Below are positions 5,538 to 40,020 of a stretch of 40,020 nucleotides of DNA, in pieces (position 1 is the stretch's first letter; the number at the start of each line of letters is the position of its first letter). The notes beneath the pieces were generated by a model that worked only from the letters and a program-made list of their open reading frames with translations, searched no databases and was not told the origin of the DNA. The position numbers were made by a program, and so were the translations under genes. The stretch covers positions 1 to 40,020 of the IMG/VR virus record IMGVR_UViG_3300031951_000434. One strand, written 5' to 3'. This DNA comes from a virus.

Positions 5538-6260
5538 CTAGAGCGGCTCGTGGACGATTGCCGCAATCACCCGGTGGGTGATCTGGATGTGCTCGCCCGC
5601 GACCGGCCTGACCGGCAGGGGGGTCTGGAAGTCGGGGCGCGACGACAGGCAGCGCAGCTCGAGGCCGTGGGGGCCCAGCGCCAGCTCCTTGCAGGTAGCC
5701 TCGACCTCATCGTGCCGATAGCGCTGCACGATCACGCGCTCGCCGGGACGGGGCTCACGTCCGAGCTCGTCGTAGCTCACGCATATCACGGTCGAGCCGT
5801 GTGGAAACACGCGATCCATCGAGTGGCCCGACACCTCAAAGGCGACCACGTTGTGCTGCCGGTAGGCCGGGGGCGCCACGTAGGGCACGGAGCGGTGCTC
5901 GTCCGCCTGAGCGGCGGCGCGCCACAGGCCCGCCTGCACCGACCCCACGACGGGGATGTGGCTGTGGCTGCGCGCACGCACGCGGCTGGTCACCTGCGCG
6001 TCGCGGCCCGACAGGATGCGGACGGCCTCGGTGTGGTCGATTGGCGGGTCGCCAAGGCCCTGAAGGGCGTCGGCGAGGCGGACGGATACGTCGAGCGCGA
6101 GGTACTCGCCGGTGGCGCCGTAGACGTGCTTGCCGATCCCTGACCCGTGGCTGTAGCCCGCGCGCCGTGCCAGCTCGCGGAACGACAGGCCGGATCGGTC
6201 AATCAGGGAGCGCAGGCGCGCACCCGCTCCACTCAACTTTTTATCGTGCTTCGTCGTCAT
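5538..6260 (-). CDS. LexA/cI-like S24 repressor
   Basis: A 240-residue prophage repressor. The N-terminal HTH (about 10-65: LRSLIDRSGLSFRELARRAG) binds operators. The C-terminal S24 self-cleavage domain shows the Ala110-Gly111 cleavage site (SVQAGLW), catalytic Ser147 (SGHSMD) and catalytic Lys191 (ATCKEL), all intact. By analogy with lambda cI and LexA, RecA filaments formed after DNA damage should trigger cleavage and induction. The start is the ATG at 6260, not the GTG at 6302, which lies inside the operator. The start codon overlaps a DnaA-box-like TTATCCACA. It is divergent from the DnaA-like gene at 6366, and the intervening 105 bases form the immunity switch. Confidence 0.9.
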   Translation of the reverse strand: MTTKHDKKLSGAGARLRSLIDRSGLSFRELARRAGYSHGSGIGKHVYGATGEYLALDVSVRLADALQGLGDPPIDHTEAVRILSGRDAQVTSRVRARSHSHIPVVGSVQAGLWRAAAQADEHRSVPYVAPPAYRQHNVVAFEVSGHSMDRVFPHGSTVICVSYDELGREPRPGERVIVQRYRHDEVEATCKELALGPHGLELRCLSSRPDFQTPLPVRPVAGEHIQITHRVIAAIVHEPL

Positions 6261-6268
6261 GTGGATAA
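6260..6268 (-). promoter_or_regulatory. Consensus DnaA box at the repressor start
   Basis: The reverse strand reads TTATCCACA, the consensus DnaA box, sharing one base with the repressor ATG. A one-mismatch copy (ATATCCACA) is at 6295-6303. The adjacent rightward gene encodes a DnaA-type DNA-binding domain, so these may be sites for the host DnaA or its phage look-alike. Confidence 0.45.
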
Positions 6269-6300
6269 CTGCGTAACTTGGTCCGACAAAGTCAATATCC

Positions 6301-6319
6301 ACACTTGATTAACAAGTGT
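6301..6319. promoter_or_regulatory. Candidate repressor operator in the divergent region
   Basis: ACACTTGATTAACAAGTGT is an inverted repeat with 7-base arms and a 5-base spacer, between the divergent repressor and DnaA-like genes. A weaker relative (ACTTG, six bases, CAAAGT) is at 6276-6292. A possible rightward promoter, TTGATT (6306-6311), 17 bases, CTGTAC (6329-6334), overlaps the palindrome, so a bound repressor would block it. GGTGTACGG follows at 6350-6358. Operator identity is inferred from symmetry and position. Confidence 0.55.
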
Positions 6320-38130: not shown

Positions 38131-38154
38131 TGTCTGGGGGGCAAGTGGAACAGT

Positions 38155-38173
38155 GAACCAGCAACCCCTACCG
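38155..38173 (+). repeat. attP-region repeat, copy 1
   Basis: GAACCAGCAACCCCTACCG differs by one base from 38243-38261 (copy 2, inside the tRNA fragment), 88 bases away. Copy 3 at 38363-38380 matches 15 of 18 positions. All three have the same orientation; consensus GAACCASCRAMCSCTACC. Confidence 0.6.
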
Positions 38174-38190: not shown

Positions 38191-39372
38191 TCACGATTTT
38201 CGCGGAGTTCTGCGCCGTGCAATGGTGGGCGCTGCTGGGATTGAACCAGCGACCCCTACCGTGTGAAGAGCGCCCCGGTCAAGCTTTCCGCCGATTTTTG
38301 GCGCAACGGTTGCCCTGCCGGTCCCTGACCGTTCTGGGGCCGTTCTGGTCGCTGGTTCATTTGAACCACCGAACGCTACCTGTTCGAGCCTCTCGGTCGC
38401 CAGCGACAGCGCCTGAGCCGTGTGGCGGGCATAGACGCGCTCGGTCACCGTCACCGAGCTGTGGCCGAGCAGCTGGCTGACCACGGTCAGGGGCACGCCG
38501 TCGTCGAGCAGCCACGTCGCCACCGAGTGGCGCAGGACGTGCAGGGTGACGTCGGCGCCCAGACCGGCGCGGTTACGGGCACGATTAAACGCACCGCGAA
38601 CGGCACTCACGCTCCGGCCCTGCCACGACACGACCGGCCCGCTACCGCCCGTCCACGAGGCCCTGAGAGCCTCCGTGAGGCTGGCGGTGAGGGGCAGCAC
38701 GGGCGGATACCCCTTCGAGCGCCTCGGCGCGGCCCCGAGCAGGAGCTGGCGCCGATCGAGGTCGACCTCGTCCCACGTCAGCGCCAGCACCCTGCCGACC
38801 CGCAGGCCGGTGCCGAGCAGGATCTGGACGGCGAGGCGCAGGTGAGGCTCCTCGCAGGCGCCGAGCAGCCTCGCGGCCTCGGCCCGCGTCAGGCGGCGCT
38901 CGCGCCGTCTCGGGACGTGGCCCCTGACCGCGCGAGCTGCACGCCTGACCGACGGCCCCCCGACCGCCCTCAATGCCGCCGAGAGCGTCGCGAGCTCTCG
39001 CAGGATCGTCGCGTCTCGCACGCCGCTCTGGCGCCTGCCGGAGACGTAGCGCGCGACGGCCTCCTCGTTGACGAGCGCGACGGGGAGACGTCCCAGCGCG
39101 CGTCCAATGTGTGCAGCGTGATAACGAGCAGTGACCGCACTAGCGCGGCCAAGGCGCTCCTGATCGCGCACGTACGATGCGAGCGCATCCACTATGTCCC
39201 CGGATCGCGCACGAACGTGCTCTTGATCTGCGACCCATCCCGCCGCTTCAGCGTGAGCGTGATCTCGACGATCTGCCCGAAGGGTGCGGCGGTGTCGTCG
39301 CCCCTCGCCGTCGTACCAGACGAGCGCGTACCTGCCGCGCCAGACGCCGATACTCCATCTTTCGATTCGCAT
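38191..39372 (-). CDS. int: Tyrosine integrase with attP in its 3' end
   Basis: A 393-residue tyrosine recombinase. N-terminal arm-binding part (YALVWYDGEGRRHRRTL), core-binding helices (60-135), catalytic domain with R191 (TGLRVGR), K220, H278-x-x-R281 (LHVLRHS), H304 (LLGHSS) and nucleophile Y314 (RVYARH); all are present. The catalytic domain ends near residue 335. The tail (336-393) includes codons 369-384 that are the tRNA-Val 3' half, so integration would replace the last nine or so residues by host-encoded ones. ATG 39372 was chosen because the sequence conserved in integrases begins there. It overlaps the excisionase-like gene by 181 bases. Confidence 0.9.
   Translation of the reverse strand: MRIERWSIGVWRGRYALVWYDGEGRRHRRTLRADRRDHAHAEAAGWVADQEHVRARSGDIVDALASYVRDQERLGRASAVTARYHAAHIGRALGRLPVALVNEEAVARYVSGRRQSGVRDATILRELATLSAALRAVGGPSVRRAARAVRGHVPRRRERRLTRAEAARLLGACEEPHLRLAVQILLGTGLRVGRVLALTWDEVDLDRRQLLLGAAPRRSKGYPPVLPLTASLTEALRASWTGGSGPVVSWQGRSVSAVRGAFNRARNRAGLGADVTLHVLRHSVATWLLDDGVPLTVVSQLLGHSSVTVTERVYARHTAQALSLATERLEQVAFGGSNEPATRTAPERSGTGRATVAPKIGGKLDRGALHTVGVAGSIPAAPTIARRRTPRKS
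38223..38267 (-). other. attP: attP core: 3' half of tRNA-Val(CAC)
   Basis: The reverse strand reads an anticodon loop TTCACAC (anticodon CAC), 3' anticodon stem GGTAG, variable loop GGGTC, a perfect T-arm (GCTGG TTCAATC CCAGC), the 3' acceptor strand AGCGCCC and ACCA. The 5' half of a tRNA is absent: the bases before the loop (CGCTC) do not pair with GGTAG. Phages that integrate into tRNA genes carry just such a 3' segment to rebuild the gene. The likely attB is a host tRNA-Val gene starting GGGCGCT. Confidence 0.8.
38353..38382. repeat. attP-region inverted repeat and direct-repeat copy 3
   Basis: TGGTTCA-TT-TGAACCA (38353-38368) is a perfect inverted repeat with 7-base arms. Its right arm opens the third GAACCA direct-repeat copy (38363-38382). 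It lies in the integrase tail codons on the other side of the core from copy 1, so both may be integrase-binding sites. Confidence 0.5.
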
Positions 39373-39566
39373 TGCACGACCTCCGCCAGAGGGACGTAGA
39401 CTACGCCCTCGTGACCGTAGGCTGGCAAGCCGTGCCGAACCGCCTTGCGCACGACCGCTGGCGTACACTCCCAGCGCTCGGCGACCTGCTCGAGCGTGAG
39501 CCAGTAGCGGCGATGAGGGCGCTGGCCGCGCGGCATCTTCGGGATGACGAGGTTGCCGATCTTCAC
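39192..39566 (-). CDS. Excisionase-like HTH protein
   Basis: A 124-residue protein. Residues 21-66 form a MerR/excisionase-type HTH (YWLTLEQVAERWECTPAVVRKAVRHGLPAYGHEG, then YVPLAEV), the pattern of phage Xis and AlpA proteins. It starts at GTG 39566, overlapping the stop of the upstream gene (GTGA). The C-terminal 60 residues are coded in the 181-base overlap with the integrase, in another frame, and look less conserved. It probably directs excision and could also affect integrase expression. Confidence 0.65.
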   Translation of the reverse strand: MKIGNLVIPKMPRGQRPHRRYWLTLEQVAERWECTPAVVRKAVRHGLPAYGHEGVVYVPLAEVVQCESKDGVSASGAAGTRSSGTTARGDDTAAPFGQIVEITLTLKRRDGSQIKSTFVRDPGT

Positions 39567-40015
39567 GCGGCACCGTTCCGCGTGGCGGCGGGTGCGGATC
39601 GCTCTATGGCTTCCGGCTCTACAGCCGTATCCTTCCCCGCCGCCTTGTCCACGCCATCGCTGGCGGTTGTCTTAGATACGCACAGGTCATTCATCCCGCC
39701 TGTGTATTCCGCAAGAGCGGCGGCGGGTGCGCCACCCTTCGCTATCGCAGCCGCTTCCTTCGCTGCCTTGATGAGACGTTGCCCGACTGTAGGCTCCACG
39801 CCATCGCTTGCTTCGGCGGCTCTATACTCAGCCTTCGTCGCTGTGATTATCGCTTTCTCGCAGGCGCGCTCCTCCTCATCCAGAAGCGCCTTGTACCGCT
39901 GGACCTCACCCTCAAGGGCTTCGATGCGGTCGGCGGCATCCACTAAGTCAGACGGCGCACTTGTCAGGCCGTGTTCGCCCCACAGCCGCAGTCGCTTCAC
40001 AAGGTCACTGCTCAT
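39563..40015 (-). CDS. Small coiled-coil phage protein, copy/allele A
   Basis: A 150-residue protein of unknown function. Its first 38 residues equal those of the gene at 52-399; then it differs (QRYKALLDEEERACEKAIIT), with a helical middle and an Ala/Lys/Thr-rich low-complexity end that includes two ASDGV motifs. Its stop overlaps the excisionase start. On a circular map it would follow the nuclease-like gene at 396-857 and link the early left operon to excisionase and integrase. Confidence 0.65.
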   Translation of the reverse strand: MSSDLVKRLRLWGEHGLTSAPSDLVDAADRIEALEGEVQRYKALLDEEERACEKAIITATKAEYRAAEASDGVEPTVGQRLIKAAKEAAAIAKGGAPAAALAEYTGGMNDLCVSKTTASDGVDKAAGKDTAVEPEAIERSAPAATRNGAA

Positions 40016-40020
40016 TCGCC
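39903..40020. repeat. 118-bp direct repeat, right copy (window end)
   Basis: Identical to 287-404 and ending with the last base of the window. Offset 39,616 bases, which would be the genome length if the two copies are one locus on a circle. Confidence 0.9.

Follow-up and report, generated by a model that had tools for sequence, protein, structure and literature searches.

Integrase gene and conserved enzyme

The window, meaning the whole stretch of DNA analyzed here, is a virus record of 40,020 bp; its genes for portal, capsid and terminase were matched to phage families. Two genes on the minus strand define the integration locus:

38191..39372, minus strand: tyrosine integrase gene (int), 393 aa from its ATG; conserved enzyme approximately residues 1-330, tail residues 331-393
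39192..39566, minus strand: small helix-turn-helix (HTH) protein, excisionase-like (PF12728 HTH_17, E 2.6e-4, below the curated cut-off)

The best start of the integrase is the ATG at 39372, which has GGAGGT just upstream, and the stop codon ends at 38191. The protein matches PF00589 over residues 160-319 (E 8e-25) and phrog_1 over residues 9-344 (E 1e-50); PF16795 gave a match only below its cut-off. The catalytic domain carries the conserved Arg, His, Arg, His, and Tyr of tyrosine integrases: R191, R281, H304, and Y314 were invariant across ten sequences and H278 was nearly so. The conserved enzyme stops at about residue 330, and this is probably the functional end of the integrase.

The HTH gene lies upstream of int and overlaps it by ∼180 bp (39192-39372) in different frames. 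The same overlap is found in the closest relative, L012 (a 41,176-bp contig), where it is occupied by a homologous frame, and protein similarity between the window and L012 was seen in both frames.

attP core and host tRNA-Val sites

Downstream of the conserved enzyme, the integrase frame runs through the following DNA:

38223..38268, minus strand: attP core as assigned here, the 3′ half of tRNA-Val(CAC), anticodon loop through CCA; exact in four MAGs and in L012
38213..38222, minus strand: TTGCACGGCG, further identity to host DNA downstream of the tRNA in L017/G001 (56/56 bp)

The core CTTCACACGGTAGGGGTCGCTGGTTCAATCCCAGCAGCGCCCACCA is 46 bp long (38268-38223) and is read in frame as integrase residues 369-384; coordinates and residue numbers derived from the integrase frame confirmed this placement of the tRNA-Val 3′ half, which had been proposed in the first-pass annotation. 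ARAGORN predicted a complete tRNA-Val(CAC) gene ending in the core in both L019 and L020, followed in each by a gene that we take to be TerC-like. A 45-bp exact pattern of the core matched just four stretches in a 257-Gb genome collection, all of them in MAGs of uncultured Alphaproteobacteria, so the match is not due to chance. The attP core thus matches, base for base, the 3′ portion of a tRNA gene of the host, as in tRNA-targeting modules. On sequence grounds we conclude that the 46-bp segment is the true attP core. The earlier proposal that attP lies inside the integrase frame is borne out by the exact core in the four alphaproteobacterial MAGs and by the 56/56-bp identity in L017/G001.

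The predicted host of the window virus is an uncultured alphaproteobacterium. The L017/G001 lineage is the best candidate, since its identity continues 10 bp beyond the tRNA end (56/56 bp), a match that was unique among 96 genomes of the order. The L017/G001 contig breaks off at the anticodon loop. A terminase search of the 96 host-order genomes found no lysogen of the window phage (best match 59%). The end of the MAG REEB471 contig (L017 5783) at the tRNA-Val crossover region would be expected if the population were mixed for an inserted element.

Probable arm sites around the core

Three further features flank the core:

38353..38368, no strand: palindromic arm site TGGTTCAAATGAACCA, putative integrase arm-type site, within the int frame (residues 335-340)
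38146..38160, no strand: second arm site TGGTTCACTGTTCCA, on the opposite side of the core
38269..38312, minus strand: P-arm DNA conserved with L012 (GCGCCAAAAATYGGCGGAAAGCTTGAYCGGGGCG; alignment and pattern scan)

The TGGTTCAAATGAACCA site is on the integrase side of the core and, judged by its sequence, is probably an integrase arm-type site. In the window the arm motif is found only twice, once on each side of the core. The layout is shared by L012, and one copy of the motif is present at the attL of MAG-147 (see below). The P-arm DNA at 38269..38312 is coding in the window and non-coding in L012.

A GGTAGGGGTTGCTGGTTCA-like sequence was found in three imperfect copies (38146-38171, 38226-38260, and 38346-38380), and the arm sites to either side of the core are similar to the T-arm of its tRNA half. 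One of the three copies may be a decayed older core.

Position of the integrase stop in relatives

L012 has the same core and the same arms as the window, and its integrase is 51% identical. Its DNA is conserved with that of the window on both sides of the core, with a palindromic site on each side. The L012 integrase ends LER-stop (TAG) 107 bp before the core, near window residue 330. The two sequences differ by one base in length directly before a shared GGTAGCG, and because of this difference the TAG is read in frame only in L012, not in the window. In podovirus ct2G2228 (L098), 120 bp separate the integrase stop from the tRNA core of that phage. At the attR on L018, another integrase ends 122 bp ahead of the core that the window also has, and for the G068 integrase (L097) the distance from stop to tRNA core is 11 bp. 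Five integrases adjoining a tRNA core were seen in all, and that of the window is the only one to run through the core.

G068 carries three tandem tRNA-Val 3′ ends (L097 829, 5258, and 7834), the second being the one before which its integrase stops; this suggests stacked integrative elements.

An alignment scan for close relatives of the window integrase returned L012 alone, and a protein scan of viral contigs otherwise gave only integrases of 24-33% identity. Integrase matches in the host order lacked a tRNA core, and most of them were Xer-like or unrelated. A partial integrase in the best host MAG (L024) was set aside because it was Xer-like and did not adjoin the tRNA. Relatives of the endolysin yielded no additional module of int plus tRNA core.

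The relatives point to a tRNA-targeting tyrosine-integrase module of the conventional type in which the usual stop of the integrase gene is missing, so that attP DNA is now in frame; we hold this to be the likely explanation of the overlap. The direction of change, as the comparison suggests, would be stop loss in the window lineage. A single-base length difference accounts for the whole extension, and it could be a sequencing or assembly error near 38380, with the real gene stopping before attP; the record is indeed a contig from a metagenome, and a repeat limits its end. Contigs assembled from short reads seldom contain single-base errors, though, and the site near 38380 is not a homopolymer and is not made doubtful by anything else. 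We therefore consider such an error rather unlikely.

Tail residues 331-393: protein or read-through DNA

The part of the integrase beyond the conserved enzyme was defined as follows:

38191..38382, minus strand: read-through tail, residues 331-393, attP DNA in the integrase frame (GC3, pLDDT, absence in L012)

For residues 1-330 the GC3 value was 0.81, and for residues 201-330 it was 0.88, but it fell to 0.51 in residues 331-393; none of 231 same-length blocks from eleven phage genes had a GC3 as low as that of the tail. The differences between the window and L012 were spread evenly over the three codon positions in the tail (9/8/10) and were biased to the third position in the domain (45/36/90), although this contrast is not significant (Fisher p 0.10-0.15). 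The window integrase has 79 residues after the catalytic Tyr, vs. 20-42 in 25 others. AlphaFold2, run with a two-sequence alignment, placed the last helix at residues 307-334 and gave pLDDT below 50 for residues 335-387; with so small an alignment, this lends weak support to a disordered tail. The 63-residue tail is absent from L012, which uses the same attP.

These data also bear on the opposite order of events, in which the extended integrase would be original and functional and L012 would be truncated or misassembled. In its favor, the frame read in the window stays open for 81 codons in L012, and the tblastn alignment with L012 extends to residue 384. However, roughly one in two random sequences of matched dinucleotide content should have an open frame of 60 codons, so the openness of the tail frame says little. 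The L012 DNA read in the window's tail frame also has a GC3 of 0.51, the L012 integrase ends where the last predicted helix ends, and the integrases of L098 and L018 likewise stop well before their cores. We regard an ancestral long form as improbable. Under the preferred reading of stop loss, the tail is probably neutral and the overlap without function here.

Predicted effect of integration

A natural view of this site is given by G002 (MAG-147), in which the same tRNA-Val is occupied by another prophage, with attL on L095 and attR on L018. We infer that L095 and L018, which lie on separate contigs, are the junctions of one prophage. On L095 the T-arm of the tRNA is a compensated variant, and the palindrome TGGTGCAAATGAACCA comes after the tRNA. 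L018 contains the end of a tyrosine integrase, a 122-bp spacer, and the original host 3′ half, beyond which lies a gene that is presumably TerC-like. The sequence TACCTTCACACGGTAGGGGTC is common to this attL and attR, and the crossover of the G002 prophage is therefore placed in the anticodon arm. By analogy, the crossover point of the window phage would also lie in the anticodon arm, and the tRNA sequence from the anticodon loop to CCA would be left unaltered by its integration.

In the MAG-147 tRNA-Val (L095 4766-4840, L018 2791-2837) the T-arm has been replaced by the compensated variant, apparently from the prophage, which makes it a natural case of a phage-supplied change in tRNA sequence.

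Prophage forms of the window integrase were predicted by joining int in silico to four host sites. The phage form is 393 aa long and ends PTIARRRTPRKS, with TPRKS as its last residues. In the L017 join the last six residues were replaced by 35, giving a predicted integrase of 422 aa; in the L018, L019, and L020 joins about the last nine residues were replaced by 13-14, giving 397-398 aa. Over all joins, 11-35 host-encoded residues took the place of the last 6-9. Residues before 384 were unaltered in every join and the changes started after 384-387, more than 50 residues beyond the end of the conserved fold, leaving the catalytic domain intact. The expectation that integration changes the last residues of the integrase thus holds for the predicted forms (397-398 or 422 aa vs. 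393 aa).

The proposed course of events is as follows. An ancestral stop near residue 330 would have been lost when the one-base length difference shifted the TAG out of frame. Translation would then proceed for 63 codons, which take in the P-arm, the whole tRNA-Val core, and a few further bases. Recombination by the integrase would take place between attP and an attB located in the anticodon arm of the host tRNA-Val(CAC). At one end the phage-borne 3′ half would restore the tRNA, and at the other int would become continuous with the 3′ half displaced from the host gene and with the host DNA past it, with only the last 6-9 integrase residues being swapped. The attP DNA would be retained for recombination and now be translated as well.

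The first-pass annotation went further and suggested that integration acts as a regulatory switch on the integrase. In such a scheme the tail would alter the activity, specificity, or stability of the integrase and the prophage enzyme would differ, as reported for phage Mx8. The attP core does lie inside int and in frame, the predicted prophage form does have another length and end, and Mx8 and Mx9 demonstrate that such systems can exist (PMC6070905). Against this, merely the last 6-9 residues are altered, all of them past the fold. The tail has no coding signature, is predicted to be disordered, and is missing in L012, which uses the same site. The new end varies with the host strain, and an ssrA-type degradation tag was found at the end of neither the phage form nor any predicted prophage form. 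We consider a switch very unlikely, and this part of the annotation was not upheld. Also very unlikely is a recently gained integration-sensing integrase, whose disordered tail, written by attP and tRNA sequence and rewritten by each host, would tune activity or excision; prophage stability would then depend on the host strain.

Comparison with known systems

An attP within int is already known from Mx8, Mx9, and SSV, and the window is a further case of this arrangement. Reportedly, about a hundred integrase residues are replaced on integration of Mx8. The attP of Mx8 and Mx9 is situated in the coding frame of int, which acquires a different 3′ end when the phage integrates (PMC6070905, with reference to Tojo 1996, Magrini 1999, and Julien 2003); for Mx8, the same account describes the change in int as altering specificity. 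The window phage likewise has its attP core inside the int reading frame. It differs from Mx8, compared here by description, in that it would swap 6-9 residues past the fold and in that the attP of its nearest relative is not part of int. Integrases reaching across attP are provided for in Islander, with citation of Mx8 and SSV (PMC4383910).

The suicidal integrases of archaeal SSV-type viruses also have attP inside the integrase gene, and integration splits that gene into inactive halves (PMC8371274). This model was rejected for the window: the core is at residues 369-384, the catalytic Tyr is residue 314, and the domain stays whole. In the integration-dependent immunity of mycobacteriophage BPs, attP is in the repressor gene, and the repressor has an ssrA-like tag in its viral form (PMC4557955). 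BPs resembles the window in having attP inside a lysogeny gene, so that the protein has, or in the window would have, one C-terminus in the virion form and another in the prophage. The repressor-switch model was nevertheless rejected, as attP of the window is in int, its repressor-like genes lie elsewhere (1042-1392 and 5538-6302), and the viral end TPRKS has no ssrA-like tag. No functional hallmarks of Mx8, SSV-type, or BPs-like systems were found in the window phage.

Conventional tRNA-targeting modules, including those of L012 and ct2G2228, share with the window an int beside a core made of a tRNA 3′ half, and L012 shares the arm sites and the small HTH gene upstream of int as well. The stop codon comes before the core in these modules and after it in the window. 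If the stop loss is real, it would be a simple first step toward Mx8-like integrases, since a change of one base in length puts attP inside int. The window phage and L012, with the same attP and an int that runs through it in one and ends before it in the other, form a pair that would let the effect of such a tail be tested directly.

Ends of the virus record

A 118-bp sequence at 287-404 is repeated identically at 39903-40020, near both ends of the record. Each copy encodes the same N-terminus (MSSDLVKRLRLWGEHG...) of two otherwise unlike small proteins. Probably the genome of the window virus is circular, or else circularly permuted, and has a variable gene where the ends meet.
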